Below, piece after piece: positions 3,431 to 25,703 of a stretch of 38,197 nucleotides of DNA. Position numbers and translations under genes: made by a program. The stretch covers positions 5,042 to 43,238 of the forward strand of contig NZ_KI912094.1 in assembly GCF_000517025.1 (NCBI RefSeq), in the 5' to 3' direction. The notes beneath the pieces are model-generated. The model had not been told where the DNA came from. It worked only from the letters and a program-made list of their open reading frames with translations, and did not search any database. This DNA is from Halonatronum saccharophilum DSM 13868 (GTDB lineage: Bacteria; Bacillota; Halanaerobiia; Halobacteroidales; Halobacteroidaceae). Position 1 is the stretch's first letter. Each line of letters begins with the position of its first letter.

Positions 3431-4660
3431 TTATTTTACTATTTCACAATGTACCTTCTGCTCTACCTCATACCAAGCTACTGTATAACCTTGACCTTTA
3501 GTACTTCTAATTGGATTGGCCCTATTATCTGAACCTGAATCTCCTGTAGCTCTTCTTCCCAGCTAACACTTAAGGAGGGATCTTCATCATTTAAAATTTT
3601 AAATGATGAAGATCCCTCCTTAACATTTGTTGTAGAGCCAAAGATAACCTTCGACCTTAGAGTAGGTATGCTATTGTAAGATAAACTTTGAACCTCCCCA
3701 CCCAATCCTAAACCAGCCTTGGTCTTAGAGAGACCCATAACTCCAACCAGTTGACCCGCCTGAGCAGATTCTACTGCTTGATATTTCTCTCTGGTATAAA
3801 TCCTAAGCCCAGTGATCTTCTCACTAACCTCCTCTTCTCCTGATAGATAAGTAAGCTCATCTCTAACATTAACCTTGCCATCCAGCACCTTCATAAATGA
3901 GGTCCTATTGCCTTGTTTATCATGACCAATCTTATATATTCTAGCTTTAAATTCTTGGTCACTATAATCTGTTTCTGTCAGAAAGTGAAGGTTATCAAGA
4001 AATTCAATTATCCCTTCATCATATAAGGCTGACCCACTAGAAGCTAAATACAATCTATTCTCCTTGATCATCTCTTTCATCTTATTTAGCCAAATTTATT
4101 TGTTGTACTCTCCTTCTAGATAACTCTCTAAGAGCTTATCATCTCTTTCAGCCACAAACTTTATAACTTCTTCAGTTAAACCTTCTTCTAAAGAAGTAAG
4201 TAGCAGACAGATATCTTGGGCCAAATCAACTCTAATCTCTTCCATTACCCTCTCTATCTGCCCCAACTCTATCTGTTTTATTGATAAAAAAGAAGGATGG
4301 AATTTGATGCTTCTTTAGTAATTCCCAAACTGTCTCTGTATGGCCCTGCACCTCTTCTACAGCACTGACGATTATAATTGCATAATCCATAACCATAATA
4401 GCCCTCTCCATCTCAGGTGAAAAATCAATATGACCAAGGGTATCTATTAGATAATAAGTATCTCCTCTATGCTTCATAAGGGTCTGATCTGAGAATATGG
4501 TTATACCCCTTTGCCTCTCTATCTGATGGGTATCCAAATAAGATCTCTGATGATCTACCCGACCAAGGTCTCTAATTGTATCTGTATGATATAAAAGCCC
4601 TTCTGAATAGGTATTTTTATCTGCATCAACATAGGCTATGACTCCAATTGTTTTGTTCAT
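3431..4660 (-). pseudogene. Decayed translational GTPase (EF-G/TetM-like ribosomal-protection type)
   Basis: Two fragments in different frames match successive parts of the EF-G-like family. The first (ATG at 4660 to 4232) is the G domain, with a damaged P-loop (AYVDADKNTYSE where the family has A/GHVDAGKTT), RGITI (G2), DTLGH instead of DTPGH (G3) and an intact NKTDR (G4). After GAD at about 4250 the frame shifts by one. The shifted frame continues through ERVMEEIRVDLAQDICLLLT to a stop near 4092, then resumes (4080-3478) with domain II-like sequence to NDEDPSLS…VQIIGPIQLEVLK. The domain IV/V region is missing; after LEVLK another frame reads on 20-odd codons to a stop at 3431. The fragments cover little over half of a normal ~650-residue protein. 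A frameshift, a nonsense codon, a ruined nucleotide-binding loop and truncation together argue against function. Confidence 0.85.
3570..3623. repeat. 54-bp perfect palindrome inside the GTPase pseudogene
   Basis: A 23-bp arm (3570-3592, TTAAGGAGGGATCTTCATCA plus TTT) is exactly the reverse complement of 3601-3623, and the 8-bp centre AAAATTTT is itself palindromic. The right arm is the expected conserved coding sequence of the family (the NDEDPSL codons on the minus strand). The left arm has replaced what should be upstream coding sequence, giving the odd string GSSSFK. This looks like a local inverted duplication (template switch) and not a terminator or operator. Confidence 0.9.
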
Positions 4661-11407: not shown

Positions 11408-11610
11408 ATTTTTCCCCTTCCTAAAATAACTACTTTGTTCAAATTTATTTAATTACAGTTATTAGGTATTCGTCATATTATTAAGAAAACCTCTATTTTT
11501 TTATCATTTCAATCAAATTTCTACTTGTTTTTCAAAATTAAATTTTATATAAACTATTATATTAAATTACTTTCTTTGAGCTCTTATTAAGAAATTAATA
11601 ATTCAAAAGA
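11408..11610. other. Intergenic between the Mrp 1 terminator and the histidine kinase
   Basis: AT-rich sequence with no gene. It must hold the promoter of the histidine kinase at 9491-11407, whose SD is GGAAGGGG, but no convincing TTGACA/TATAAT pair was found. Confidence 0.4.
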
Positions 11611-11638
11611 TAAAACCTCCTTTTAAAAGGAGGTTTTA
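11611..11638 (-). terminator. Terminator of Mrp operon 1
   Basis: A 28-bp perfect palindrome (arm TAAAACCTCCTTTT) lies about 140 bp beyond the last gene of the first Mrp operon, with T-rich ends. It separates the operon from the histidine kinase. The 140 bp between the operon stop and the palindrome hold nothing recognisable. Confidence 0.75.
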
Positions 11639-11778
11639 CCACTAGATTCACACAACCCAGGTGAGCAATTACAGGCTATGTGCTTCATCACTCTTTTTAC
11701 TCTATTAAATTTCAAATCAAATCTTAATATTTTTCATATTTAATAAGGTTTATATTATAAAATAAATTAAAAAGTACT

Positions 11779-13335
11779 TTATAAGAGCAAATTAATCCAT
11801 AAAAGAATCAAAGTTGAAAAAATCCAAAGAAAATATCTAGAAAGATTCCCATTGTGGGTAGCAGTTAATAACCTACCAGCATTATTAAAAACTCTACCAA
11901 ATAAAGAGTAAAAATCCAAACTTTTCTCTTCATAATCCTTAGGCTCAATAATATCATGGGCCAACTTAAAGATAAGTAAAGCCCATAAAGTAGGCTGCAA
12001 ACCTTCCCAAATATAAGCCAAACTATAATAATCAACTCCCAACTCTAAGCCATAAATAAGCTCTATAGCCCTTGGCCAAAGACCTATCACTATAATTGGA
12101 AAGACAAAAAGAAACATAGCCCCCTTCATATAAAGAGTTGGTGTTTTCTCCATCTCAACCTCTCTATCTCCAAAGAAACAAAAGTAAATAACTTTTATAA
12201 GAGATAAAGAAGTAGCAATTCCAGTTATATATAAGACCCAAACCAAGAGGTGACTCTCTAAAGCACTCTTTATCACTACCTTGCTTAAATAACCGTTAAA
12301 AAAAGGAAGACCCATAATACCAAAAGCTCCAATTATACAACAAAAAGCAGTAAAAGGTAACTGTTTAGCTAATCCTCCTAATTCAACTAAGTCCTCTTTC
12401 TTAGTTGAATAAATCACAATTCCAATTGTCATAAATAAAATACTTTTATATAAGACCCCATTAAAAAGGTGAAAAATACCACCTTGAGAACCTAAATAAT
12501 TTGTACTAGTTATTCCAATAATCATATATCCAATTTGACTTATGAGATGATAAGAAAATATCTTTCTAACATTAGTAGTTCTTAAAGCAAAAAAAGCAGC
12601 TATCAAAGCCGAAAAAGCCCCAAAATAAGAAAGATAACTTATACCACCTAAGAATTTATATATTCCATATACTCCTACCTTAGTAGTATAAATAGAAAGT
12701 AATAAGGTTATATAAAAAGGAACATTAATATAATTTTGTGGCAACCATGTATGAAGCCCAATAAAAGCAGCTTTAATTCCCACCCCTAAGATAAAGAAAG
12801 GAATCCCAAATTCTATATTCTCCAAAATTATACTCCCGCTCCCACTATATTGCATAAAGATACCCCAAAGCAAGCTTACCCCACCTACCAAATGCATAAT
12901 AAAGTAGTAATAGCTCGTCTTTGCAGTAAACTCCTTATTCCTATTAAAGATCAGAAAGTAAGATGATATAGTCATCATCTCCCAAAAGATATAAAAAGAG
13001 AAGAGGTCACCAACAAAGAGAATTGAAATAGAACTTCCTATATACAGATAAGCCAATAAGTAATAGCTTCTAGGGGCCAACTTCAAAGAATAGAGGTTAT
13101 TAACCAAGGCAGCAAAAGCAAAGATTACCCCAACTAACCTACTAATATTATCTACCTCTAATAATATCAATTCAAAGTCTAAGAAAGGAAGGGTAATTAC
13201 CATCCCCTCACTTAAAGTAAAGACGCTTATTAGAACAAGGATAGATAAAAAGATTGAAAATAACCTTCTAGCTCCTTCCTTAAAGAAGAAGATTGGTATC
13301 GCCGCAAATAGATATAAGAAACCTGGATTCAACAT
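11779..13335 (-). CDS. Mrp-type antiporter, second NuoL/M-like subunit (MrpD'), operon 1
   Basis: This 518-residue polytopic protein belongs to the complex-I/Mrp antiporter subunit family (Proton_antipo_M domain about 100-390). The conserved charged residues are present: Glu119 in YIFWEMMTISSY (TM5) and Lys188 in GVGIKAAFIGLHTWLP (TM7), followed by the family's LHTWLPQNY. It is the last gene of the operon, four bases after mrpD, with a TAGGAGGG SD before its ATG. It probably takes the place of the antiporter half of MrpA, because the MrpA C-terminal modules occur as separate small genes upstream. It has the same length as its operon 2 counterpart (18002-19558). Confidence 0.88.
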   Translation of the reverse strand: MLNPGFLYLFAAIPIFFFKEGARRLFSIFLSILVLISVFTLSEGMVITLPFLDFELILLEVDNISRLVGVIFAFAALVNNLYSLKLAPRSYYLLAYLYIGSSISILFVGDLFSFYIFWEMMTISSYFLIFNRNKEFTAKTSYYYFIMHLVGGVSLLWGIFMQYSGSGSIILENIEFGIPFFILGVGIKAAFIGLHTWLPQNYINVPFYITLLLSIYTTKVGVYGIYKFLGGISYLSYFGAFSALIAAFFALRTTNVRKIFSYHLISQIGYMIIGITSTNYLGSQGGIFHLFNGVLYKSILFMTIGIVIYSTKKEDLVELGGLAKQLPFTAFCCIIGAFGIMGLPFFNGYLSKVVIKSALESHLLVWVLYITGIATSLSLIKVIYFCFFGDREVEMEKTPTLYMKGAMFLFVFPIIVIGLWPRAIELIYGLELGVDYYSLAYIWEGLQPTLWALLIFKLAHDIIEPKDYEEKSLDFYSLFGRVFNNAGRLLTATHNGNLSRYFLWIFSTLILLWINLLL

Positions 13336-13339
13336 TTAA

Positions 13340-14812
13340 CTACCCTCCTAAAAATACACTGATATAATTTTGACTATCTAATAATAATGCAGGAGCCCTC
13401 TCCACTAAATAAAGAGGATATTGGGGAAATAGTCCCAATAAAATACAAAAGAAAGCCAAGATAAGAGCTGGTATCTCCAACTGCCAAGCTACCCTCTTTT
13501 TAGCCCACCCTTCTTTTGGGTTAGAGTATAGCATTATAAATACCTTTAGATAATATGTTAAGGATATTAGACTCCCTACAGGGATCATAAAAGCAGCCAA
13601 CAGGTACCCTCCTTCAATTGCCCCTTCAATAATCAACCACTTACTGATAAAACCGTTAAAAGGTGGAAGACCTACAATAGCCAAAGATCCAATTACAAAA
13701 ATTACACCTGCTCTAGGAACTAAAAAGCCTAAGCCCTTAAGATCTTTAATTTTATGAGCATTAAAATAATAGATGAAGATTCCTAAAGCCAAAAAAAGTG
13801 CACCCTTCATAATACTATGGTTAATAATATGATAAATAGCACCTACTATTCCTTTATGGCTTAATACACCAAAGCCTACTACTATATAACCAATCTGGGC
13901 TATACTTGAATAACCTAATAACCTCTTTATATTATCTTGCTGATAAGCCATTGTATGAGCTATCAGGAAGGTAAAGACCCCCCAATAGATAAGTATAGCC
14001 TCCAGACCAATATCCCTTAATAGATCTACTCCATATAATGTATATACTATTCTCATCAAAGCATATAAGAATGATTTGATAACTAAAGCAGAAGACAATA
14101 GGTTAAAAGGAGCAGGCGCCTTAGGATATGAATCAGGTAACCAAGTATGCAAAGGAATTAAAGCAAATTTTGTACCAAAACCTACTATCATCAAAACTAG
14201 AATACTAATTATAGTAAATTGATCTAACTCCCCGAAACTAAGAGCTATCTGGGCCAAATTTAAAGTTCCTAAGGATAAATAGATAGTTATTATCCCTAAC
14301 AAAAGAAACAAACCACTAAAGGATCCTATCATTAAATACCTAAAGGCCCCCTCTATACTCTCATCCTCCTTCTTAATAGCAACTAAAGAGTACGAGGCTA
14401 TAGACGTAACCTCAAAGAATACATAAAGGTTAAATAAATCCCCAGTCAGAACCATCCCCATAGTTCCTGTTACCAATAAGAAGGATAAGATATAATACTT
14501 TAGTATATTCTCCTTAATATATTTAATCGAATAAATAATAGCCAAAAATGATAAAATAGATATTATACTAGCCATTATTGCAGCAAAGGAATCCATAATT
14601 AAAACAATTCCTATAGATGAATCCCACCCTCCTAAATTGTATCCAATCGGTTCAACAAAAGCCTGAGCGGCTACTATAATCGTCAAAACAAGATGTAATA
14701 AACTACTTCCTATAATCACCGGAAGCATAAATCTTTCACAAAAATAACTTATTACCCCCAAAGAAAAAGCCGTAAACAAGGGTAATACAATCAACAAAAC
14801 CAACAAATCCAT
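13340..14812 (-). CDS. mrpD: Na+/H+ antiporter subunit MrpD, operon 1
   Basis: This 490-residue NuoN/M-like proton-translocating membrane subunit has the antiporter domain at about 110-410. Key residues are Glu134 (NLYVFFEVTSIASY) and Lys215 (GFGTKFALIPLHTWLP), plus Lys246 in SALVIKSFLYA. It works with MrpC in the antiporter membrane arm to exchange cytoplasmic Na+ for protons. The ATG follows a GGGAGG SD. It is preceded by a 361-bp gap from mrpC, three times longer than in operon 2 and filled by a MITE-like insertion, so its expression may be partly uncoupled from the upstream genes. It is colinear over its whole length with the operon 2 copy. Confidence 0.92.
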   Translation of the reverse strand: MDLLVLLIVLPLFTAFSLGVISYFCERFMLPVIIGSSLLHLVLTIIVAAQAFVEPIGYNLGGWDSSIGIVLIMDSFAAIMASIISILSFLAIIYSIKYIKENILKYYILSFLLVTGTMGMVLTGDLFNLYVFFEVTSIASYSLVAIKKEDESIEGAFRYLMIGSFSGLFLLLGIITIYLSLGTLNLAQIALSFGELDQFTIISILVLMIVGFGTKFALIPLHTWLPDSYPKAPAPFNLLSSALVIKSFLYALMRIVYTLYGVDLLRDIGLEAILIYWGVFTFLIAHTMAYQQDNIKRLLGYSSIAQIGYIVVGFGVLSHKGIVGAIYHIINHSIMKGALFLALGIFIYYFNAHKIKDLKGLGFLVPRAGVIFVIGSLAIVGLPPFNGFISKWLIIEGAIEGGYLLAAFMIPVGSLISLTYYLKVFIMLYSNPKEGWAKKRVAWQLEIPALILAFFCILLGLFPQYPLYLVERAPALLLDSQNYISVFLGG

Positions 14813-14844
14813 CTACTTCCCTCCTTTTCTTAAAAATCTATTAT

Positions 14845-15135
14845 ATAGTAATAAAGTACAACTTTAGAAGTTGGGTGGTTAGTTAGATGGGAGTTAGTTA
14901 AGAACTTTAAAAATATAAAGATCAAAGGCCTAGACGCAGACCAAGTTCTGACAAGAGCCGACAAAGTCCAGACAAAGACCAGAAAATTAAAAATAATAAG
15001 GTTTAATCAGATCTTAGTCATCTTTTGTCAAAGATTTTGTCTGCGTCAATTATTTTGGATTTTGATATATTGACTTTACTCACACTCACTACTTACCACA
15101 TATTACTTGACACAAAAGTGCTACTTTATTACTAT
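14845..15135. mobile_element. MITE-like element inside Mrp operon 1 (mrpC-mrpD gap)
   Basis: The segment is bounded by a perfect 14-bp inverted repeat (ATAGTAATAAAGTA at 14845-14858 and its complement at 15122-15135). Inside it lies a second, imperfect inverted repeat of about 45 bp, anchored by GACGCAGAC (14933-14941) and GTCTGCGTC (15039-15047). No protein-coding frame is credible. The corresponding gap in operon 2 is only about 115 bp, so about 250 bp were added here. The terminal motif recurs at 17692, 30047-30190 and 36102, as expected of a dispersed non-autonomous element or repeat hairpin. No target-site duplication could be defined. Confidence 0.6.
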
Positions 15136-15173
15136 TTAGTTGTACTTTATATGGCAAAAAATAATTTTCTTCT

Positions 15174-15509
15174 CTATCCTCTCAGCCGTCTAATCTCATT
15201 TATATCCACTGTCCCATATCTCTTATGTAACTTAATAATTAAAGCTAACATCAGTGCCGTCATACTTGCTCCAATAACGATTGCCGTTAAAGCTAAAGCT
15301 TGGGGGATTGGATCTACAACTATGGTATAATCTCCATCTAAAATAGGTGCTGTTCCACCCTCCCTATAACCTAAGAGGACTAAAAGAATTATTAAAGCCG
15401 ATTCAGCAATATTAAAGCCCATAACTACTTTGATTAGATTACTTTGGGTCAAGATTATATATAGACCCTGACAGAATAAGATTATAACTATCAAATAAGC
15501 AAATTTCAC
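15174..15509 (-). CDS. mrpC: Na+/H+ antiporter subunit MrpC, operon 1
   Basis: This 111-residue NuoK-like subunit has three hydrophobic helices (about 5-25, 30-48 and 70-95). The conserved core VVDPIPQALALTAIVIGAS (about 68-86) identifies MnhC/MrpC. It partners MrpD in the membrane complex. The gene starts one base after mrpB ends, indicating translational coupling. Its operon 2 copy has exactly the same length and the same YREGGTAPIL/YKPGGSAPIL loop. Confidence 0.93.
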   Translation of the reverse strand: MKFAYLIVIILFCQGLYIILTQSNLIKVVMGFNIAESALIILLVLLGYREGGTAPILDGDYTIVVDPIPQALALTAIVIGASMTALMLALIIKLHKRYGTVDINEIRRLRG

Positions 15510-15510
15510 T

Positions 15511-16200
15511 TTATTCCTCCTTTATCATACAGTTAAAGATAATTGCCAACCCAGCACCAACCTTTATACCAGTAGCTAAGTTTAATAATGAAATCGTTCC
15601 ACCACTAAATAAGTCACCTGGCTTACCTAAAGAAAAGAGGGCTTGCCCATTGGCTAAAAAATTAGATCCAGCCAATATGCCAATTAGGCCAATAAAGATA
15701 AAAGTCATCCCCCCAAAGCTCTCCATCAATGTTTTAGTCTTATAACGCCATCTCTTCTCTGAATAATCTGGGCCAAAGGTTATGGTCAAAAGAATTGAAA
15801 TAGTAGCTATCACAACCCCTCCAGTAAATCCACCTCCAGGTGAGAGATGACCATAAAGTATCAAATATAGACCCAACACTCCTAAAAAAGGCAAAATAAA
15901 GGATATGGTCTGATAAACGGCAACACTGAAGGTAGCAGCCAACATTGTAGCCCGCTTTTTAGGTACAAGAAAGGCTATTGCTGAAGCAACACCAAAGATA
16001 ACAGTCGCTTCTCCTAAGGTATCAAAACCACGATAATCAAATAAGATAGCAGTTACTAAATTGATAGCCCCTGTCTCTTCAACCCCACTTTGGAGATAAT
16101 GATCACTTAAACTTCTATCAATAACTTGATGGTTTAAGAGCAATACTGAAAGCAAAGAGGCAAAGATTAAGATTAAGATCAAAGGAAATATCTTTTTCAT
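15511..16200 (-). CDS. mrpB: MbhE-MrpB fusion subunit of Mrp antiporter, operon 1
   Basis: In this 229-residue membrane protein the first part (about 35-85, GAINLVTAILFDYRGFDTLG) is the MbhE-like module normally found at the C-terminus of MrpA. It is followed by a MnhB domain (about 90-225; ILYGHLSPGGGFTGGVV). Thus the MrpA tail is fused to MrpB here. The ATG overlaps the stop of the preceding mbhD-like gene by four bases (ATGA). Together with MbhD, MrpC and MrpG it forms part of the Na+-handling half of the complex. The operon 2 homologue has identical length. Confidence 0.88.
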   Translation of the reverse strand: MKKIFPLILILIFASLLSVLLLNHQVIDRSLSDHYLQSGVEETGAINLVTAILFDYRGFDTLGEATVIFGVASAIAFLVPKKRATMLAATFSVAVYQTISFILPFLGVLGLYLILYGHLSPGGGFTGGVVIATISILLTITFGPDYSEKRWRYKTKTLMESFGGMTFIFIGLIGILAGSNFLANGQALFSLGKPGDLFSGGTISLLNLATGIKVGAGLAIIFNCMIKEE

Positions 16201-16436
16201 TCTACCCCCTCCGTCTTATTAATAGTTATCACAAAAAAACCTGTAGTAATACCAGCAGCAATTACTGCTTCGGCCAAAGCCACATCAGGGGCCTGAAATA
16301 TAACAAATACAATAACTAAAACAGCGCTAAAGATAGATAGTATTATTAAGCAACTCAATAAATCATCACTAAAGATTACAGCAAAGGCTGCAACTACAAG
16401 AAAAGAGAGTAATATGTATAATATAAGCTCTATCAT
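16197..16436 (-). CDS. MbhD-like (DUF4040) subunit of Mrp antiporter, operon 1
   Basis: This 79-residue, mostly hydrophobic protein has the MbhD/DUF4040 signature FQAPDVALAEAVIAAGITTG (about 47-66), which in canonical systems forms the penultimate module of MrpA. As a free-standing gene this organisation is closer to the Mbh/Mrp-like complexes of archaea and some anaerobes. It starts one base after mrpG ends and overlaps mrpB by four bases. Confidence 0.88.
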   Translation of the reverse strand: MIELILYILLSFLVVAAFAVIFSDDLLSCLIILSIFSAVLVIVFVIFQAPDVALAEAVIAAGITTGFFVITINKTEGVE

Positions 16437-16437
16437 C

Positions 16438-16767
16438 CTAGTATCCCTCCTCTAAATCGTCCCTTAAAAGCCCTTTAGGTTTAAGACCAAAATAATAGGC
16501 TGCTCTGGCAATAGCATGGCTGGTTACAGGGTTTGTTATTATCAGAAATAATATTATTATACTTAACTTTAAAGAAATCCGATTGATCCCCTCAAAACAA
16601 ATGATCCCTAATAATATTGAAACCCCACCTCCTGTCAAGGACTTAGACCCTGCATGTAAGCGGGTATAAAAGTCTGGAAATCTAACCATAGCAATCCCGG
16701 TAATAATAAAGAAAAAGGTTCCAATAAATAAGAAGAAATACCCTAAAATCTCTAATAAGTTATTAAT
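16438..16767 (-). CDS. mrpG: Na+/H+ antiporter subunit MrpG, operon 1 (probable AUU start)
   Basis: This MrpG subunit has three hydrophobic helices with the family core MVRFPDFYTRLHAGSKSLTG and LIITNPVTSHAIARAAY. I place the start at ATT (16767), giving 109 residues beginning I/M-NNLLEILGYFF, where MrpG proteins normally begin. A GGGGGAGG SD sits six bases before it, and the ATT overlaps the mrpF stop (ATTAA). The alternative is a TTG at 16791 with no SD, adding eight charged residues that are not typical of MrpG. The paralogue in operon 2 has the same arrangement. The function is a structural subunit of the antiporter; the start is inferred. Confidence 0.85.
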   Translation of the reverse strand: MNNLLEILGYFFLFIGTFFFIITGIAMVRFPDFYTRLHAGSKSLTGGGVSILLGIICFEGINRISLKLSIIILFLIITNPVTSHAIARAAYYFGLKPKGLLRDDLEEGY

Positions 16768-17023
16768 CGCTAACCTCCCCCTTCTTTCCAAAATATTTGG
16801 CCATTATCAATAAATCTACAAAGAGGAGTAAACCATAAACCAAAGCCACATCTATAAATATCTCCCTTTCAAAATGGATGCTCAATAAAACCAATATAAT
16901 CAAAAACATTATCCCCATAGAATCAGCAGCTGCAATCCGATCAAAGACTGTTGGCCCTTTTAAAACTCTATAAAAGGAGAGTAATGCCGATATAATTATA
17001 GCCAATATTATATATAGTATCAT
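16763..17023 (-). CDS. mrpF: Na+/H+ antiporter subunit MrpF, operon 1
   Basis: This 86-residue protein has three helices and the MrpF signature GPTVFDRIAAADSMGI (about 28-43), followed by FIDVALVYGLLLFVD. The start ATG overlaps the mrpE stop (ATGA). The end contains a purine tract that also serves as the SD for mrpG, so the two are tightly coupled. It is a small structural subunit of the multisubunit antiporter. Confidence 0.93.
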   Translation of the reverse strand: MILYIILAIIISALLSFYRVLKGPTVFDRIAAADSMGIMFLIILVLLSIHFEREIFIDVALVYGLLLFVDLLIMAKYFGKKGEVSD

Positions 17024-17523
17024 TTAAATATCCTCCTTATTATAGCTTCAATTGGCCCAAATATCTCCTCTTTTAATTCCTCCCCCTCTAACTCCTCCAT
17101 ATCTATCCAGTGAATATAATAATCCTGCTCCTTAGTATCTAGATCTATGGTTAAGGTTCCAGGGGTTAGAGTTATACTATTTGCTAATAAAGTCATAGAC
17201 ATTATCTTAGTCTTCCAATTAAAGTCACTTGAAACTTTAATAATCCCCGTTTTTAAAGGTAGTTTTGGGTGCAAAGTTAGATAAGCTACCCGACAACTTG
17301 ATACAAAGGCTTCCACAATTAAAAAAAGTAGATAAATAATTATAAATACCGACCTTATTATAATTATCCATGCAGTTACATTAGTTGCTTTAGATTTAAT
17401 TACAAAGGTTAAAAGCAAAGATACAATTACACCTACAAACAATGAACTTATTGCTAAATCTCCTGATATAATCAACCAACTAATAAAAAATAAAACAAAA
17501 GTAAATATCTCTTCTTTTCTCAT
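17020..17523 (-). CDS. mrpE: Na+/H+ antiporter subunit MrpE, operon 1 (first gene)
   Basis: This 167-residue protein has N-terminal membrane helices (about 5-70) and a cytoplasmic C-terminal domain with the conserved ANSITLTPGTLTIDL (about 111-125). This defines MnhE/MrpE, which helps assemble and stabilise the complex. It starts at ATG 17523 behind an AGGAGGGG SD and is the first gene of operon 1. The upstream 400 bp hold the heptamer satellite and the operon 2 terminator, so operon 1 should have its own promoter between about 17530 and 17690, but I could not identify a convincing one. Confidence 0.92.
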   Translation of the reverse strand: MRKEEIFTFVLFFISWLIISGDLAISSLFVGVIVSLLLTFVIKSKATNVTAWIIIIRSVFIIIYLLFLIVEAFVSSCRVAYLTLHPKLPLKTGIIKVSSDFNWKTKIMSMTLLANSITLTPGTLTIDLDTKEQDYYIHWIDMEELEGEELKEEIFGPIEAIIRRIFK

Positions 17524-17691
17524 CTCTCCCCTCCTTAATAGTTTTTAATACTAACTTATTGCTAAAACTTCTCTAATAATCCACAAAAACCTTCTTTTAA
17601 AATTATATTCACCAATATCTTAACATACTAACATTACATAAAGATTAATGAATACTTAAAGAAGGATTAAATAAGATTAAAAAGGATTAAC
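17524..17691 (-). promoter_or_regulatory. Upstream region of Mrp operon 1
   Basis: This is the only gap in which an operon 1 promoter can lie, since a terminator closes operon 2 at 17947-17998. It is A/T-rich with the direct repeats AAGGATTAA, but no clean -35/-10 pair was found. Confidence 0.35.
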
Positions 17692-17716
17692 AGTAATAAA
17701 GCAAAGCTTTATTACT
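17692..17716. repeat. TAGTAATAAAG-type hairpin, copy A
   Basis: AGTAATAAAGC-AAA-GCTTTATTACT is a perfect 11-bp stem with a 3-base loop. It is followed by TAATCAGTAATGAGT and the heptamer satellite. The same hairpin recurs at 30163-30187 and 36102-36126. Confidence 0.8.
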
Positions 17717-17774
17717 AGTGATGTGTAATCAGTAATGAGTGACCAGTACAACCCTAAAAACTTAACTCATTTCC

Positions 17775-17949
17775 CATTACTCATTACTCATTACTAATTA
17801 CTCATTACTCATTACTCATTACCCATTACTCATTACCCATTACTCATTACCCATTACCCATTACCCATTACTCATTACTCATTACTCATTACTCATTACT
17901 CATTACTCATTACCCATTACTCATTACTCATTACTCATTACCCATTATA
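17775..17949. repeat. Heptamer satellite (CATTACY) x 24
   Basis: There are twenty-four tandem copies of a 7-bp unit, CATTACT or CATTACC with one AATTACT, followed by a partial CATTATA. They lie between the two Mrp operons and end directly at the operon 2 terminator. Perfect periodicity suggests slippage and copy-number variation between strains. Shorter degenerate copies occur near 7945 and 30130. Confidence 0.95.
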
Positions 17950-17998
17950 ATATAAAAAGAACAGCTAGCCATAGGGCCAACTGTTCTTTTTATATTAT
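17947..17998 (-). terminator. Terminator of Mrp operon 2
   Basis: A perfect 18-bp stem (ATAATATAAAAAGAACAG and its complement) with a 16-base loop lies directly after the last gene of operon 2. The loop contains GGGCCAA. T-rich arms on the minus strand make a strong rho-independent terminator, so the two Mrp operons are transcribed separately. Confidence 0.88.
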
Positions 17999-18001
17999 CC
18001 A

Positions 18002-19558
18002 TTATATAGAAATTTTAATCCAAAAGATGACTAGAGTTGCTACCATCCAAAGGATATACCGACTTAAATCACCATTTTGGACTTGACTAAATAAATTAGC
18101 CAAATAATCTAATCCACCCTTAACCCTTGGATAGAAGTCTCTATCAACTTCTGGGTGAGGGTGAGGTTCTATAATATCATGGGCCAACTTGAAGATAATC
18201 AAAGCCAATAAAATAGGTTGAAGACTGGCCCAAATATAACTTAAAGAAAAGTAACTTACACTTTTAGCACCTAAATCAAAGAATCCTTCTGCTAACTGAG
18301 GCATAATTCCAATAATAATCATTACAAAGGAGACCATCCCCATAGCGATTAACATAGATCTTTTAGGCTTACGTTTAATCTCAACATTACCCTTATCTCT
18401 AAAGAAACCAAAGTACATTACCTTCATAAAGGAAAGTGAGGTTCCTATCCCAGCTATAAATAACCCCCAAATTAGAATAGGATCACTAGTACCACTTTTA
18501 ATCAAAAGCTTACTTATATGACCATTAAGAAAAGGAAATCCAGCAATACCTAAAGACGCAATCACACCATAGAGGGATGTTAAAGGCAACTTCTTAGCCA
18601 AGCCTCCTAAATCAACCAGATCTTCCTTATCAGTAACATAAATAACCGTTCCAATCACCATAAATAACAGACCCTTATATAAAACATTATTAACCAAGTG
18701 CAGTATTCCACCTGCTACCCCCAAAGAGGACCTCACTCCAATTCCAACAATCATATAACCGATCTGACTGACAATATGGTAAGAGAGGAGCTTACGAACC
18801 TCAGTCTGCTTAAGAGCAAAAAGAACACCAATTATAGCAGTTATAACCCCACCATAAGCAAGAAACTCTTCTCCTAATAGACGGTACATACCATAGACAC
18901 CTACTTTGGTAGTATAAGCAGATAAAGCAACACTAGTAATAAAAGACACATTAGCATAGTTTTGTGGCAACCAGGTATGGAGACCAATAAAAGCCAACTT
19001 AATCCCTACAGCCAAGATAAAGAAGGGTAATCCATACTCAACTGTAGTAAGGAGTATACTTCCTGTATTAACATACTGCAACAATATCCCCCAAAGAAGA
19101 CTGACCGCTCCTACCATATGCATAGTAAAGTAATAATAACTTGTTTGGCCTGTAATAGGCTTAGTCTTATCAAAGATTAAAAAGTAAGAACTGATAGTCA
19201 TTAACTCCCAAAAGATATAAAAGGAGAAGAAATCTCCTACAAATAAAAGAGTCAAAGAACTACCAATATATATATAAGTTAAAAAAGAGTATCTCTTATC
19301 AGTCAACAAGAAGGAGTAGACTATAGCAGCTAAAGCAAAGAAAGCAAAGACCAAGCCAATAAGCCTACTTACATCATTAACACTCAAAAGAATAATTTCA
19401 AAATCTAAAAATGAGAATGTTAACCCTTCACCTAAAGGCAAGGTCCAAACCATTACTAAAGCAATTAAGGAGATTAATATAGATAAAAGATCCCTCAACC
19501 TTCCTTTGATAAAGTATAATATCCCAGCACCTAATAGATAAATCATTCCTGGATTCAA
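18002..19558 (-). CDS. Mrp-type antiporter, second NuoL/M-like subunit (MrpD'), operon 2
   Basis: This 518-residue paralogue of the protein at 11779-13335 has the same length. The conserved antiporter residues are Glu118 (FSFYIFWELMTISSY) and Lys187 (AVGIKLAFIGLHTWLPQNY). The start is TTG at 19558, ten bases after GGAGG; the ATG just upstream (GGAGGTTGATG) is in another frame. It is the last gene of operon 2, six bases after mrpD, and a terminator follows its stop. It probably supplies the antiporter half of the missing MrpA. Confidence 0.87.
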   Translation of the reverse strand: MNPGMIYLLGAGILYFIKGRLRDLLSILISLIALVMVWTLPLGEGLTFSFLDFEIILLSVNDVSRLIGLVFAFFALAAIVYSFLLTDKRYSFLTYIYIGSSLTLLFVGDFFSFYIFWELMTISSYFLIFDKTKPITGQTSYYYFTMHMVGAVSLLWGILLQYVNTGSILLTTVEYGLPFFILAVGIKLAFIGLHTWLPQNYANVSFITSVALSAYTTKVGVYGMYRLLGEEFLAYGGVITAIIGVLFALKQTEVRKLLSYHIVSQIGYMIVGIGVRSSLGVAGGILHLVNNVLYKGLLFMVIGTVIYVTDKEDLVDLGGLAKKLPLTSLYGVIASLGIAGFPFLNGHISKLLIKSGTSDPILIWGLFIAGIGTSLSFMKVMYFGFFRDKGNVEIKRKPKRSMLIAMGMVSFVMIIIGIMPQLAEGFFDLGAKSVSYFSLSYIWASLQPILLALIIFKLAHDIIEPHPHPEVDRDFYPRVKGGLDYLANLFSQVQNGDLSRYILWMVATLVIFWIKISI

Positions 19559-19564
19559 GGTTCA

Positions 19565-21031
19565 TCAACCTCCTAACAATAAATTAATATATTCAGTATT
19601 ATTTGATAAAAAGAATGTAGCCTGCTCAATCAAAGACAATAATGGTTGAGGGAAGATTCCTACTAACAAAGAAGAGATAGTCAAAACAAAGATTGGGAAC
19701 TTAAAGGTCCAACTAACTTTTTGAACCTCAATTGCCTCTCCTTTAGAATATAAGACCTTTATTATCCTCAAATAATAGGCCAAAGATATCAAGCTTCCAA
19801 TTAAGACAAAGAAAGCTGCTAGAGAATATCCACCTTCTAAAGATGAATAAAGTATCAACCACTTACTTATAAAACCATTAAAAGGTGGCAATCCAACCAT
19901 AGCCAAAGTAGCCAAAGTAAAAGCAAAAGAAATCTTTGGCATAGCAAAACCTAAACCTTTAATATCTTCTATCTTAGTAACTCCCTTAGTATAAATAAAT
20001 ATTCCAAGAACCAAGAATAAAACACTCTTAATTATTCCATGATTAAAGATATGAAAATTAGCTGCTATAATTCCATTCTCAGTACCTACACCGATACCAA
20101 GCATAATATATCCTATCTGAGCAATACTTGAGTAAGCAAATAACCTCTTTAGATTATCCTGCTTATAAGCTGATATATGTGCCACCAAGAAGGTGATTAC
20201 CCCCCAATAGATTAGTAGCGTACCTATATCTCCATTTATAAAGTCAATCCCATAGAGAGTATAGACTATCCTCATAAAAGCATATAAAGACGTCTTAATT
20301 ACTAAAGCTGAAGATATAGCATTAAAAGGAGTAACAGCTTCAGAATAAGCATCAGGCATCCAAGCATGTAAAGGAACAAGTGCAAATTTAGTTCCAAAGC
20401 CAATAAAGAAAAATACAAAGATTGTTTGTCTAATTGCAAAAGGTACTTCCATAAAGTTAGCTGCTACATGGGCCAAATTCAAAGCGCCAGTTGTTTGATA
20501 GGTCAAAATTATTGCTAACAAGACAAAAGTACCACTTATAGAACCCATAACCAAATATTTAAAGGCGCCTTCAAAGCAATCACCCTCATCCTTAATGGCG
20601 ACTAAAGCATAAGAGGTCACAGAAACAATTTCAAAGAAGACATAAAGATTAAATAAATCCCCCGTCAATACCATCCCCATCATTCCAGCAATAAGAAGAT
20701 TTAATATAATATAATACTTCAATTTGTGCCTTTTAATATAGTATAAAGAATATATTAATACCAAAAAAGAGATTATACTAATTAATAAAGCCATCATCAA
20801 CGAAAGTGAGTCAATAACTAAGTTAATACCTAAAAAAGAGTCCCATTCTCCCAACTTATAGATAATAGGCTCTTCTAAAACTCTCCTAGCTACTTTACCT
20901 ACTAAAAAAATATGCACAGCTGCACTAGTTAAAGCTATAGACCTTATTAGATTTTTTGAAAATAAATTTGCTAAACCCAAAACAAAGGCTGTTAGCAATG
21001 GTAAAACAATTAACATAATAGGTGTATTCAT
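19565..21031 (-). CDS. mrpD: Na+/H+ antiporter subunit MrpD, operon 2
   Basis: This NuoN/M-like antiporter subunit has Glu (NLYVFFEIVSVTSYA) and Lys (GFGTKFALVPLHAWMP) at the proton-transfer positions. I choose ATG 21031 (488 residues): it lies six bases after GGAGG, whereas the longer TTG start at 21037 overlaps the SD spacing. It is clearly paralogous to 13340-14812 over its full length, with nearly identical motif strings such as GMVLTGDLFNLYVFFE. It pairs with MrpC, encoded 115-120 bp upstream. Confidence 0.91.
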   Translation of the reverse strand: MNTPIMLIVLPLLTAFVLGLANLFSKNLIRSIALTSAAVHIFLVGKVARRVLEEPIIYKLGEWDSFLGINLVIDSLSLMMALLISIISFLVLIYSLYYIKRHKLKYYIILNLLIAGMMGMVLTGDLFNLYVFFEIVSVTSYALVAIKDEGDCFEGAFKYLVMGSISGTFVLLAIILTYQTTGALNLAHVAANFMEVPFAIRQTIFVFFFIGFGTKFALVPLHAWMPDAYSEAVTPFNAISSALVIKTSLYAFMRIVYTLYGIDFINGDIGTLLIYWGVITFLVAHISAYKQDNLKRLFAYSSIAQIGYIMLGIGVGTENGIIAANFHIFNHGIIKSVLFLVLGIFIYTKGVTKIEDIKGLGFAMPKISFAFTLATLAMVGLPPFNGFISKWLILYSSLEGGYSLAAFFVLIGSLISLAYYLRIIKVLYSKGEAIEVQKVSWTFKFPIFVLTISSLLVGIFPQPLLSLIEQATFFLSNNTEYINLLLGG

Positions 21032-21152
21032 AGTCAACCTCCAAATCTATTGACATTTATTCATTATATTCTAGGTGAAATTAAATTCAAGTCTAAAATT
21101 AAGATCAAGTAAGATCAATCATACATAAGCTCAAACTTAAACTCAAATTCAA

Positions 21153-21488
21153 TTAACCTCTTAAATTTCTAATCTCTCTAACATCTAAGGTATGGTGCTT
21201 ACTGAAGATCTTAATAATCAAAGCCAACATCATAGCAGTGGTACTAGCACCAATAACAATTGCTGTTAAAGCCAAAGCTTGTGGTATTGGATCTACAACA
21301 AGTTCATAACCTTTATCCAAAATAGGTGCAGAACCACCTGGCTTGTAACTTAAAGCAACCAATAATAATATTACTGCAGATTCTATAATATTAATTCCAA
21401 TTACCATCTTAATTAAGTTAGTCTTAGTCAAAATTGTATAGAATCCAATACAGATTAAAATTCCAACAACAGCATAGATAGAATTCAC
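21153..21488 (-). CDS. mrpC: Na+/H+ antiporter subunit MrpC, operon 2
   Basis: This 111-residue NuoK-like subunit has three helices and the conserved VVDPIPQALALTAIVIGAS segment, identical to that of operon 1. It starts one base after mrpB. The 115-bp gap to mrpD that follows is AT-rich, with no insertion, unlike the equivalent gap in operon 1. Confidence 0.93.
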   Translation of the reverse strand: MNSIYAVVGILICIGFYTILTKTNLIKMVIGINIIESAVILLLVALSYKPGGSAPILDKGYELVVDPIPQALALTAIVIGASTTAMMLALIIKIFSKHHTLDVREIRNLRG

Positions 21489-21489
21489 T

Positions 21490-22179
21490 TTACTCCTCCT
21501 TTATCAAGCTAGTAAACATAATAGAAAGTCCAGCTGCTACCTTTAAACCGGTCATAAAATTAATATAAGGAATTAGACCTGAACTCGTCAGCTCTCCTGG
21601 AATACCAAGATCAAATCCAGCTTGACCATTGGCTAAAAACGCACCACCAGCAAAAATACCAAATAAACCAAAGATCACAAAACCTATTGCTCCAAAAGAC
21701 TCTAAAAGAGATTTAACCCTTGGTCTAACCTGACGGTCTGAATAGCTAATTCCAAAGGTGATTGTTGTTAAGATCACTATCGAAGCCAAGACCACTCCAC
21801 CAGTAAATCCTCCTCCAGGTGACAAGTGACCATAAAAAATCAGATACATCCCAATAACAAAAAGGAAAGGTAAAATAAAACTGATACTTTGTTGAACAAT
21901 CACAGAAAATCTAGCAGATAACATATGTACCTTTTGCTTAGGAACTAAGAATGCTAAGGTACAAGCTGCTGCAAAGATAACTGTAGCTTCTCCTAGGGTA
22001 TCAAAACCCCGATAATCAAACAAAATAGCTGTAATTAAATTTATAGCTCCTGTATCTACAACACCACTACTAATATAATAATCACTTAACTCTTTAGCAC
22101 CCTCTGGCATTGTAAAAAAGGTTGTTAGTAATATTCCACCTAAGAGAAAGACAGTGATTGAACTTATTAATTTTCTCAT
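21490..22179 (-). CDS. mrpB: MbhE-MrpB fusion subunit of Mrp antiporter, operon 2
   Basis: This 229-residue membrane protein has an MbhE-like module (about 35-85, GAINLITAILFDYRGFDTLG) followed by a MnhB domain with YGHLSPGGGFTGGVV. Length and architecture are the same as 15511-16200. The ATG overlaps the mbhD-like stop by four bases. It belongs to the Na+-translocating part of the complex. Confidence 0.88.
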   Translation of the reverse strand: MRKLISSITVFLLGGILLTTFFTMPEGAKELSDYYISSGVVDTGAINLITAILFDYRGFDTLGEATVIFAAACTLAFLVPKQKVHMLSARFSVIVQQSISFILPFLFVIGMYLIFYGHLSPGGGFTGGVVLASIVILTTITFGISYSDRQVRPRVKSLLESFGAIGFVIFGLFGIFAGGAFLANGQAGFDLGIPGELTSSGLIPYINFMTGLKVAAGLSIMFTSLIKEE

Positions 22180-22415
22180 TTAACTCCCTCCAACTTATTT
22201 AAGGTGATTACGAAGAATCCAGTGGTAATACCTGTCGCAACTACTGCTTCGACCAGTGCCACATCTGGAGCCTGTAAAACTATAAAAATAATCACAAAAG
22301 AAGCACTAAATACAGACATCGCAATTACTGAATTTAATAAATTCTTAGTTGAAACAGCAAAAATTGCTATAAGAACAGAAAATACTAATAATACATGTAA
22401 GATAATACCCATCAT
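22176..22415 (-). CDS. MbhD-like (DUF4040) subunit of Mrp antiporter, operon 2
   Basis: This 79-residue hydrophobic protein carries the DUF4040 motif LQAPDVALVEAVVATGITTG. It has four-base overlaps with mrpG upstream and mrpB downstream, so the three are translated as a coupled block. It is equivalent to the MbhD module of canonical MrpA. Confidence 0.88.
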   Translation of the reverse strand: MMGIILHVLLVFSVLIAIFAVSTKNLLNSVIAMSVFSASFVIIFIVLQAPDVALVEAVVATGITTGFFVITLNKLEGVK

Positions 22416-22747
22416 CTCTCCTCCTTTTCACTTAATTCATCTCTAACTATATTTCTAGGCTTAACCCCAATCCCATAAGCCACCTTAGCAATAGCATGAG
22501 CTGTAACAGGATTAGTAATAATCAAAAAAGCAATTAATAATAATAATCTTAGAGTAATAAATAACTCCCATTTAAAAATCATAATTCCGATTAAAATGGA
22601 GATAGTTCCACCAGTCAACGTCTTAGAAGAAGCATGAAGCCTTGTATAAAAATCCGGAAATCTAATCATCGCAAGGGCAGAAATCAAACATAATATAGAT
22701 CCTGTAATAATAAAGTAATATCCAATAATATCAAATAAAAGTTTAAT
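22412..22747 (-). CDS. mrpG: Na+/H+ antiporter subunit MrpG, operon 2 (probable AUU start)
   Basis: This MrpG subunit has the core MIRFPDFYTRLHASSKTLTG and LIITNPVTAHAIAKVAY. I place the start at ATT 22747 (111 residues, I/M-KLLFDIIGYYF). It follows GGGAGG and a run of G with 8-base spacing from GGAGG and overlaps the mrpF stop (CATTAA). A TTG at 22774 would add nine residues but has no SD. The C-terminal tail (…RDELSEKEER) is acidic. The layout matches operon 1, which supports the unusual start. Confidence 0.84.
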   Translation of the reverse strand: MKLLFDIIGYYFIITGSILCLISALAMIRFPDFYTRLHASSKTLTGGTISILIGIMIFKWELFITLRLLLLIAFLIITNPVTAHAIAKVAYGIGVKPRNIVRDELSEKEER

Positions 22748-23006
22748 GACCCCCCCCTCCCTTCTTCTCACCAAAATATTTGGCCATAACTAAAACATCA
22801 ATAAACAATAAAACACCAAAGACCAAAGCTACATCGATAAATATATACCTTTCATAGTAAAGACTTAACAAAACCAGTATCAATAAAAACATTATACCTA
22901 TTGAATCAGCTGCAACTATCCTATCAAAGACCGTTGGCCCTTTAACTACTCTATAAGCCGTTATTAAGATAGAGATTACAATAACTACTATAAGTGATTC
23001 AATCAT
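22743..23006 (-). CDS. mrpF: Na+/H+ antiporter subunit MrpF, operon 2
   Basis: This 87-residue protein has three helices and the motif GPTVFDRIVAADSIGI, then FIDVALVFGVLLFID. The ATG overlaps the mrpE stop. The C-terminus (EKKGGGGH) is encoded by the G-rich tract that doubles as the mrpG ribosome-binding site, which explains its odd glycine run. Confidence 0.93.
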   Translation of the reverse strand: MIESLIVVIVISILITAYRVVKGPTVFDRIVAADSIGIMFLLILVLLSLYYERYIFIDVALVFGVLLFIDVLVMAKYFGEKKGGGGH

Positions 23007-23548
23007 CTAAAGACCCTCCTAATCGCTCTCTCTAAATCACCAAAAAGCTCTTCTCTTAAGTGATCTCTATCACTATCTTCAATATGATCTAGACAGTGAA
23101 TATAAAAGAACTTATTCTCCACATCAAGATCTACCGTTAAAGTACCTGGCGTTAGAGTTATTGTATTTGCTAATATAGTCATAGTTACCAGTTTATTTTC
23201 ATCTTCTAAATTAGTTGGAACCTTTAAAATACTAGACTTAAAAGGTAACTTGGGATGAACTGTTAAATAAGCAACTATATAACTTGCTATCAAAGCTTCT
23301 TTAGCCAAAACTATCAAATACCAAAAAAAAGCTAAAAAGTGGACAGTGATCTTTTTCGATAACTCTCTAGTAAAGTAACTATGCATAATAAAGACAGCTA
23401 AAAATGATATAAATAGCCCTAATACTAAAGATGAAGGAGAAAAATCTCCCGATGAAATTATCCAAGTAGTAAATAATAATAAAATAGTAAATAAATCTTC
23501 AGGATGCCCAACTGGAGACATCTCAAGTAAGTCTTTAATTTTTTTCAT
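23003..23548 (-). CDS. mrpE: Na+/H+ antiporter subunit MrpE, operon 2 (first gene)
   Basis: This 181-residue protein has a MnhE domain with ANTITLTPGTLTVDL (about 131-145). It carries about 14 extra N-terminal residues compared with the operon 1 copy (MKKIKDLLEMSPVGHPEDLF). An SD GAGGTG precedes ATG 23548. It opens operon 2; the upstream gap contains a 38-bp palindrome and the terminator of the two-component operon. Confidence 0.92.
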   Translation of the reverse strand: MKKIKDLLEMSPVGHPEDLFTILLLFTTWIISSGDFSPSSLVLGLFISFLAVFIMHSYFTRELSKKITVHFLAFFWYLIVLAKEALIASYIVAYLTVHPKLPFKSSILKVPTNLEDENKLVTMTILANTITLTPGTLTVDLDVENKFFYIHCLDHIEDSDRDHLREELFGDLERAIRRVFR

Positions 23549-23884: not shown

Positions 23885-25015
23885 CTACTTAAAAGAGTTC
23901 TTCTCTAAATTTCCCTTAGGAAGGATGAAAGAAAATTCACTCCCTCTACCTTCTTCACTATCTACCCAAATCTCTCCCCCATGGATATTAACAATTTCTT
24001 TAGCAATAGCAAGACCTAAACCAGACCCTTTATCTTGTCTATTTCTTGATTTATCAACCCTATAAAACCTTTCAAAAATTCTATCTTGATCTTCAATAGG
24101 AATTCCAATACCATTATCTATAATATCAATCTGAATATAATCTTTTCGGGCCAATATCTCAACCCTAATCTTCCCACCCTCTGGTGTATACTTAATAGAA
24201 TTATTAATTAAATTTGCAATCACCTGATATATCTTCGTTGGATCACCAACAACAAGACTATCCTTATTACTTTGAGGAGCATCTATAGTTATTTCGATAC
24301 CTTTCTCCTCAAGCCTTAACTCCACTGTCTTTAAAAAATTACACACTAACTGAACAAGATTTATTTTCTCCATTGACATCCTAACTTCTCCAGCTTCAAA
24401 CTCTGACAACCTGGCTAATTGGTCTATTAAAATTCTAATGTTATTGGCCTCTTCTATAATTGTCTTCAGATATCTTTTCTCTACCTCTTCATCTTCTAAT
24501 ACACCATCTAAGATAGACTCTGAAAAAAGCTGAATAGTTGCCAAAGGTGTCTTAAGATCATGGGATATATTGGTTACCAAATCCCTTCTAGCCTGCTCTA
24601 TCTTCTTTTGTTTCTTAAAAGCTTCATTCAATTTATAATTCATAACATTAAAAGCATCAGCTAATTGTAGCAATTCACTTTGAACATTTACCGAAACTTT
24701 ACCTTCATCAAATTTCCCCTTAGCAATTTTATTAGCTGCTGCTGTTAGCTCATCGATAGCTTGTGTAACAGGTTGAGATATATAATAATCTATTAATACT
24801 GAAAAAAGACCTGCTACAACTGTCAATAGGGAGAATGTAATAAGTCTAATCTCCTTTCCAACTAAGATATAACTAGAAATAATTATAATAGAGGCAATTA
24901 TATTACCTAAAAGAAAGGTAGCTAAGAGTTTATACCTAAACTTCTTAAATAGTATCCTTCTAATAGTTAATCTAATCTGTTTTATTTTATTTATTAGCTT
25001 CAAATTTATATCCAA
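23885..25015 (-). CDS. PhoR/ResE-like sensor histidine kinase
   Basis: This 376-residue membrane sensor kinase has two helices (about 30-50 and 57-78) separated by almost no extracytoplasmic loop, HAMP (about 80-132), HisKA with NISHDLKTPLATIQ, and HATPase with LINNSIKYTPEGG, DNGIGI and GSGLGLAIAKEI. With so little external sequence it probably senses a membrane or intracellular cue. It overlaps the regulator gene by 29 bases. The nominal start is TTG at 25015, but an in-frame TTG at 25003 sits better behind the purines and may be the true start. It lies immediately upstream of Mrp operon 2, so control of ion homeostasis is a reasonable but unproven guess. Confidence 0.93.
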   Translation of the reverse strand: MDINLKLINKIKQIRLTIRRILFKKFRYKLLATFLLGNIIASIIIISSYILVGKEIRLITFSLLTVVAGLFSVLIDYYISQPVTQAIDELTAAANKIAKGKFDEGKVSVNVQSELLQLADAFNVMNYKLNEAFKKQKKIEQARRDLVTNISHDLKTPLATIQLFSESILDGVLEDEEVEKRYLKTIIEEANNIRILIDQLARLSEFEAGEVRMSMEKINLVQLVCNFLKTVELRLEEKGIEITIDAPQSNKDSLVVGDPTKIYQVIANLINNSIKYTPEGGKIRVEILARKDYIQIDIIDNGIGIPIEDQDRIFERFYRVDKSRNRQDKGSGLGLAIAKEIVNIHGGEIWVDSEEGRGSEFSFILPKGNLEKNSFK

Positions 25016-25703
25016 CTCCCCAAACTGTCTTTATATAATTAGGATTGCTTGGATCCTCTTCAATTTTCTCACGCAATCTTCTGATATGAACAGTAATGGT
25101 ATCTGCTCCACCTACAAAATTATCTCCCCAGATTTCCTCTAATAATTGATAGCGAGAAAAAACCTGATTAGGGTGAGAAGCTAAATACCATAAAAGATCA
25201 AACTCTTTTCCAGTTAATTCAATATTCTTATTATCCTTTCTTATAATCTTTTCTTTATTATCAATCTCTATACCATCAAATGAAACTTTGCTACTATGAA
25301 GATTCATATTCTGTTTTTGGAAGTTGATTCTCTTTAACGCAGCTTTAATCTTAGCTACCAATACCTTAGAGCTAAAGGGCTTTGTAACATAACTGTCAGC
25401 TCCCATTGCATAACCTACCATCTTATCAACCTCATCAGCCTTAGCTGTTAACATAATTATATAAACAGAGCTTTCACCCCTTAATATTCTACAAACTTCT
25501 AAACCATCTAACTTAGGTAACATCAGATCAAGAACAATCAAATCTGGCTTCTCCTGACGAGCCAACTTTAAAGCTGCCTCTCCATCGGTAGCCGTTAGAA
25601 CATCTAACCCTTCCTGCTCTAAATACCTCTTTATTCCTTCAATAATATTAACTTCATCATCTACTAATAATACTTTGCCTGCTTTTGAATTCTTCGATAT
25701 CAT
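24987..25703 (-). CDS. OmpR/PhoB-family response regulator
   Basis: This 238-residue DNA-binding regulator has a receiver domain (about 8-122) with acidic pocket VDDE, phosphoacceptor Asp in LIVLDLMLPKLDG, and the conserved Lys in YVTKPFSSKVL. The winged-helix trans_reg_C domain (about 140-235) contains ELTGKEFDLLWYLASHPNQV and the RRLREKIEEDP…VWGVGYKF ending. It is phosphorylated by the kinase encoded next. A GGGGG SD precedes the ATG. Target genes are unknown; the adjacent Mrp operon and the Cys-rich mini-protein are the nearest candidates. Confidence 0.95.
   Translation of the reverse strand: MISKNSKAGKVLLVDDEVNIIEGIKRYLEQEGLDVLTATDGEAALKLARQEKPDLIVLDLMLPKLDGLEVCRILRGESSVYIIMLTAKADEVDKMVGYAMGADSYVTKPFSSKVLVAKIKAALKRINFQKQNMNLHSSKVSFDGIEIDNKEKIIRKDNKNIELTGKEFDLLWYLASHPNQVFSRYQLLEEIWGDNFVGGADTITVHIRRLREKIEEDPSNPNYIKTVWGVGYKFEANK

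Follow-up and report, generated by a model that had tools for sequence, protein, structure and literature searches.

Adjacent Mrp antiporter operons of Halonatronum saccharophilum appear to have separate histories

Introduction

Operons that lie side by side, look alike and match in gene length suggest a duplication. Whether such a pair did arise in this way is the question raised by a locus of Halonatronum saccharophilum DSM 13868 (RefSeq assembly GCF_000517025.1, contig NZ_KI912094.1), in which two runs of Mrp antiporter genes follow each other. The window analysed is a stretch of 38,197 nucleotides (contig positions 5,042 to 43,238), and all coordinates given below are positions within it. 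We call the upstream run, which is transcribed first, operon B and the downstream run operon A; H' denotes the second Proton_antipo_M protein of each run. The original prediction for this locus assumed two complete Mrp operons that stem from an old duplication and were both kept. Our comparison points to separate histories instead. Each operon probably specifies a group 3 Mrp antiporter that is complete and stands alone, and the two are likely to represent separate lineages, B being of the Natroniella type and A grouping with an operon of a metagenome-assembled genome (MAG) from another class.

Results

Sixteen open reading frames (ORFs) form two eight-gene runs, all on the minus strand and arranged head to tail, with operon B extending from 23548 to 18002 and operon A from 17523 to 11779. 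The order of Pfam families is identical in 8 of 8 A/B gene pairs (MNHE, MrpF_PhaF, PhaG_MnhG_YufB, MbhD, MbhE+MnhB, Oxidored_q2, Proton_antipo_M, Proton_antipo_M). This agreement is beyond chance and bears out the predicted pair of operons with the same order and strand.

In operon B the first gene transcribed is mrpE (23003–23548, 181 amino acids (aa); PF01899 MNHE, 1.2e-33). It is followed by mrpF (22743–23006, 87 aa; PF04066, 7.4e-13), mrpG (22412–22774, called at 120 aa from a TTG, whereby the real start may be internal; PF03334, 1.3e-25), an mbhD-like gene (22176–22415, 79 aa; PF13244, 3.2e-18), the gene of an MbhE+MnhB fusion of the type seen in MbsE (21490–22179, 229 aa; PF20501 and PF04039), mrpC (21153–21488, 111 aa; PF00420, 5.3e-28), mrpD (19565–21037, called at 490 aa; PF00361, 1.3e-59) and the H' gene (18002–19558, 518 aa from a TTG start; PF00361, 9.9e-41). 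Translation of mrpD in operon B most likely begins at an ATG that lies two codons downstream of the called TTG start, since GGAGG directly adjoins that TTG; the protein would then comprise 488 aa.

Operon A consists of mrpE (17020–17523, 167 aa; PF01899, 5.3e-32), mrpF (16763–17023, 86 aa; PF04066, 1.4e-13), mrpG (16438–16791, 117 aa; PF03334, 3.5e-26), the mbhD-like gene (16197–16436, 79 aa; PF13244, 7.3e-19), the MbhE+MnhB fusion (15511–16200, 229 aa; PF04039, 5.3e-23, and PF20501, 2e-10), mrpC (15174–15509, 111 aa; PF00420, 1.4e-26), mrpD (13340–14812, 490 aa; PF00361, 1e-56) and the H' gene (11779–13335, 518 aa; PF00361, 8.9e-42). The best match of the fusion protein in the PDB is MbsE (6u8y_E, 7.6e-34). 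MrpD is best matched by MbhH (2.4e-75) and MbsH (4.9e-74), and H' about equally by several antiporter-like subunits.

As originally noted, the called lengths 518, 490, 111, 229 and 79 aa are the same in both operons, while those of MrpE (167 in A, 181 in B), MrpF (86 and 87) and MrpG (117 and 120) differ. The exact agreement holds for the ORFs as called; MrpD of operon B probably has 488 aa, and the two H' proteins arrive at 518 aa through compensating indels (8 gap positions). The proteins are clearly diverged, as had also been stated, with identities between A and B of 45% for MrpE, 69% for MrpF, 52% for MrpG, 56% for MbhD, 59% for the fusion, 65% for MrpC, 54% for MrpD and 55% for H'. The DNA is 63% identical, with values of 0.41–0.51 at third codon positions, and no tract of gene conversion between A and B was found.

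The relatives of the two operons were sought in 13 genomes of the order, that of H. saccharophilum included, 12 of which gave an antiporter-like match at E ≤ 1e-20. Halanaerobiales had been named correctly as the order for this comparison: the same-order relatives include Fuchsiella, itself a member of Halanaerobiales. Natroniella carries the full H'-type operon once and Fuchsiella in tandem, and it is also found in several other genomes. Trees of all eight proteins were built from 17 operons. Four incomplete rows out of 21 (the first copy of Fuchsiella, L128, L123 and L126) were omitted from these and used in the gene trees to the extent of their sequence. The operon of MAG CSSed10_434R1 (L068) contributes just 248 aa of H'. 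For operons with three antiporter-like subunits the concatenation was redone with the MrpD adjoining H', which left the grouping of A and B unchanged.

In the eight-protein trees operon A is joined to L068 with a support of 100/100, and operon B to two Natroniella operons with 98–100/99–100. The same two groups are found in the small-subunit, MrpD and D+H' trees; in the tree of H' alone A and L068 stay together and B has no firm partner. Approximately unbiased (AU) tests reject a clade of A and B (with L068), with p values of 4.1e-8 and 1.95e-7. Placing either operon with the three-antiporter operons of the genus that is closest in RpoB is rejected as well (p = 5.3e-8 for A and 4.3e-4 for B). 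Judged by these trees, A and B are members of two separate lineages and not sister copies. Subunit phylogeny had been set beforehand as the check that could refute the predicted duplication. It puts the operons into separate groups, with A nearest to a MAG of another class and carrying a mark of transfer, so that an old duplication in the form originally proposed is not sustained.

The same results bear on a simple duplication within the lineage of H. saccharophilum with subsequent divergence. Such an event would explain why A and B are adjacent, have the same order and are of near-equal length. It is scarcely credible, however, given the rejection of the A+B clade under the model used and the different closest relatives of the two operons: the overall identity to these is 63% for B and 74% for A, compared to 45–69% per subunit between A and B.

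The partner of operon A lies at a considerable distance. MAG CSSed10_434R1, a member of the Clostridia, belongs to the same phylum, is not among the 59 genomes of the class and is placed outside the class on a long branch in the RpoB tree. Presumably it originates from a soda lake, to judge by its sample prefix. Operon A and the MAG operon are 74% identical over 1519 columns, and the core proteins of the two genomes are 63.5% (RpoB), 59% (AsnS) and 50–64% (NrdJ segments) identical. Since a fast-evolving membrane operon here exceeds RpoB in identity between distant lineages, horizontal transfer is indicated, and the A-type operon has probably crossed between distant bacteria. In a draw of 398 genomes from the phylum, 28 had a match at E ≤ 1e-45; of the matches listed from other classes, that of the MAG reached 75% and the others not more than 37%. 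Apart from the MAG, H'-type operons in this draw are nearly restricted to the class of H. saccharophilum, so that the A type is more likely to have originated there.

Operon B and the Natroniella operon are 63% identical overall, and the RpoB of Natroniella is 86% identical to that of H. saccharophilum. The tandem copies of Fuchsiella are sisters (MrpD 100/99, H' 99/100), and on this branching they are a true, independent tandem duplication of the same operon type. In two further loci (L128/L129, genomes G050 and G048) a second Mrp operon of a different type is located directly downstream of an H'-type operon. Because of the Fuchsiella duplication and these mixed-type tandems, tandem Mrp operons are, as far as the trees and gene orders tell, a state that arose more than once in the class. 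Operon B does not track the RpoB tree either, which suggests that losses, duplications and transfers have all affected operons of this type in the family.

Several results weigh against two separate lineages that were joined by transfer. A clade of A, L068, B and Natroniella was not rejected by the AU test (p = 0.199 and 0.223). Operon B departs from the RpoB tree, so that a 'native' status of B would not be proved either, and the order at the root of the operon lineages is not firm, which would leave room for a deep duplication followed by loss. The MAG contig comprises 4.7 kb and only the operon; misbinning is possible, GC content does not discriminate its binning, and its tetranucleotide profile favours its own bin mildly (0.64 versus 0.56 for the window, six references). 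Finally, a promoter scan gave none for operon A, with 92 sites in total versus 76.9 ± 9.2 in shuffled sequences.

Two alternatives follow from these points. The first is a very old tandem duplication before the split between the genus of H. saccharophilum and Natroniella, with loss of A in Natroniella and other relatives and a later passage of an A copy to the MAG lineage. The larger clade that the AU test retains is compatible with it; thus, the predicted old duplication fails in its simple form and could stand in this older one. Adjacency would then follow naturally as the original tandem state, and the sister copies of Fuchsiella show that tandem duplication of this very operon occurs in the order. 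On the other hand, A must have been lost in every sampled relative, since no operon grouping with A was found in 12 further genomes of the order, 7 of them from the same family, and the best tree places A apart from B and Natroniella. We regard this duplication as a serious contender that is, on balance, rather improbable. The second alternative concerns the cross-class link, which would be an artefact if the L068 contig were misbinned and derived from an unsampled A-carrying relative within Halanaerobiales. The contig is short and without flanks, the bin is incomplete (72%) and the GC content is similar. Against this, the tetranucleotide profile is, among the six references, closest to that of its own bin, albeit weakly. 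An artefact seems unlikely, although it deserves consideration.

Both operons lack a full-length mrpA, and the MbhD and MbhE domains are located on separate genes, unfused to the antiporter-like subunits. The layout of each, mrpE-F-G-mbhD-(mbhE+mnhB)-C-D plus H', is that of MBS or "group 3". According to the definition of group 3 in the accessible part of PMC8415708, such systems combine MrpB/C/D/E/F/G-type subunits in one operon, have no mrpA and contain mrpD-type subunits, sometimes several; all of this is found in A and B. The full-length MrpA of groups 1 and 2, with its NuoL-like part fused to MbhD/MbhE domains, is not present. The operons are therefore complete in the sense that they are whole and apparently functional, but not the classical seven-gene sets that the original prediction might suggest.

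The genome contains exactly four Proton_antipo_M (PF00361) genes, all at this locus. A search for the NuoH/MbhM family (PF00146) found none in the genome of H. saccharophilum and none in the 10 relatives searched, with a control family positive in 11 of 14 genomes, and no gene of a redox module was seen within the two operons. Since there is no other PF00361 gene and no PF00146 gene, no complex I, MBH or MBS is available for the operons to join. From the gene inventory, both operons are stand-alone antiporters and not parts of a redox complex. The H' proteins resemble NCBIfam PRK12668 with 388.9 and 417.5 bits, below its cut-off of 564. The structure predicted for H' from a nine-row alignment was of low confidence (mean predicted local distance difference test (pLDDT) score 60.8, below 50 at residues 467–518) and was set aside.

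Ionisable residues that are invariant across relatives (alignments of 17 to 21 operons) are all kept in A and B. Among them are Glu134, Lys215 and Lys391 of MrpD and Glu119, Lys188, His195, Lys219, Lys297 and Lys352 of H'. Which of them correspond to residues discussed for MbsH was judged by hand from the alignment and known motifs. Because the invariant ionisable residues are intact, both copies are probably working. One might suppose instead that one operon is decaying or a regulatory leftover and that only a single pump works, since a repeat element of 361 bp (14813–15173) occupies the mrpC–mrpD spacer of operon A and might interrupt transcription. This element is entirely intergenic, however, mrpD of operon A retains a good ribosome-binding site, and all eight frames of A are open with the conserved ionisable residues in place. 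A decaying operon is therefore quite improbable. The element has inverted repeats at its edges and 44 matches in the genome of H. saccharophilum, the query place itself counted; in appearance it is small and mobile or of the repetitive extragenic palindrome (REP) type. Operon B and L068 both have a corresponding spacer of 115 bp.

The predicted terminators were found for both operons. A hairpin at approximately 17952–17987 on the minus strand (−24.9 kcal/mol, z −7.23) follows operon B; it was missed by the terminator scan and recovered on folding. Operon A is followed by a hairpin at 11609–11640, also on the minus strand (−19.0 kcal/mol, z −4.88). These two hairpins support A and B as separate transcription units. 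A histidine kinase and an OmpR-type response regulator are encoded upstream of operon B (23885–25703, minus strand). They are cut off from operon B, because a third terminator (23859–23838, z −4.2) intervenes, and they had no match beside the operons of relatives among the matches listed. The stretch that separates A from B contains a tandem repeat with a unit of 7 bases and 26 copies (17765–17947).

Other arrangements were observed among the relatives. At L110, L113, L114 and L115, which belong to G006 and to the genus closest in RpoB, a single Mrp operon encodes three antiporter-like subunits (D1, D2 and H'). In these genomes the NuoH family was found in 0 of 4, and H' is barely longer than in operons with two such subunits. 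Lone H'-type antiporter genes were detected at L123 (10675–12291, G045) and L126 (4881–6473, G046), with no recognised Mrp gene in the fetched stretch; that of L123 is flanked by an M20 peptidase and a glyoxalase-like gene. A synteny comparison of 23 flanking window proteins with the ORFs of 35 loci was uninformative: the matches listed, for 12 of the 35 loci, comprise just an HPr-like protein near both Natroniella operons and one translation-GTPase fragment in a G045 locus.

Elsewhere in the window, two separate ORFs (3478–4660), one resembling the middle and the other the start of a tet-protection or EF-G-like GTPase, are probably a broken gene. A CRISPR array with 8 repeats of CRISPR-DR7 is located at 37489–38050, and a 151-base tandem repeat lies near it at 37035–37454.

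Discussion

By homology, the cation module of each complex consists of MrpE, MrpF, MrpG and the MnhB half of the fusion, and the proton module of MbhD, the MbhE half, MrpC and MrpD. H' is the only candidate for the position of MrpA or MbsH'. Powered by the membrane potential and the proton gradient, the complex would exchange H+ for Na+ (or K+), which is driven out of the cell, whereby Na+ transport by A and B is deduced from the family. In this way cytoplasmic Na+ would be held low and the internal pH close to neutral in habitats that are saline and probably alkaline. Both pumps were presumably retained through use under different conditions, and a specialisation of the two is plausible.

For the origin of the pair, we suppose that A-type operons are passed among halo(alkali)philic Firmicutes and that one type was added beside the other; duplication before the Natroniella split would be the less likely route. 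Tentatively, and with somewhat less than even confidence, we propose that an A-type operon exchanged among classes of soda-lake Firmicutes was captured beside a resident B-type operon, perhaps via recombination between homologous ends, and was kept as a second pump that differs in ion preference or expression. If this holds true, Mrp operons of this type are a shared, mobile kit of haloalkaliphiles. In either case the machine itself is of an ordinary kind, and its pairing reflects xenology or very deep paralogy.

The pair offers a natural experiment, since two anciently diverged and apparently working variants of one antiporter occur per cell, with Natroniella (single) and Fuchsiella (true duplicate) for comparison. 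With it, one could test which ions are preferred by group 3 Mrp complexes that have two antiporter subunits. As stated in the accessible part of PMC8415708, the consequences of the differences between Mrp groups are not well studied.

No description of tandem group 3 Mrp operons or of this locus was found in the titles and opening abstracts of the papers that searches of the open PMC literature listed. Two mrp clusters are likewise present in Sinorhizobium meliloti (pha1/pha2), but these belong to different groups (PMC5703873), and Ca. Nitrospira alkalitolerans likewise has two group 3 copies in one organism (PMC7784846); head-to-tail operons of the same type are not described for either species in the accessible parts of these two papers. 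The tandem operons of Fuchsiella alkaliacetigena (L066/L109) share the operon type, the tandem arrangement and the order of bacteria with those described here, and differ in being sister copies from a lineage-specific duplication. Among characterised systems, the stand-alone Mrp of Pyrococcus furiosus (mrpEFGBB'CD) has, as far as the accessible part of PMC8415708 describes it, the same order of E, F, G, B domains, C and D, no mrpA and no redox module. It contains a single antiporter-like subunit and an MbhD+MbhE fusion, whereas two antiporter-like subunits and an MbhE+MnhB fusion are found here, twice. The membrane arm of the MBS sulfane sulfur reductase from P. furiosus (6u8y), in the accessible text of PMC7684303, shares the order MbsA–H, the MbsE-type fusion and the presence of H and H'. 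It differs in that no member of the MbsM/NuoH family occurs in the genome of H. saccharophilum and in that H' has 518 aa here compared to 618 aa in MBS.

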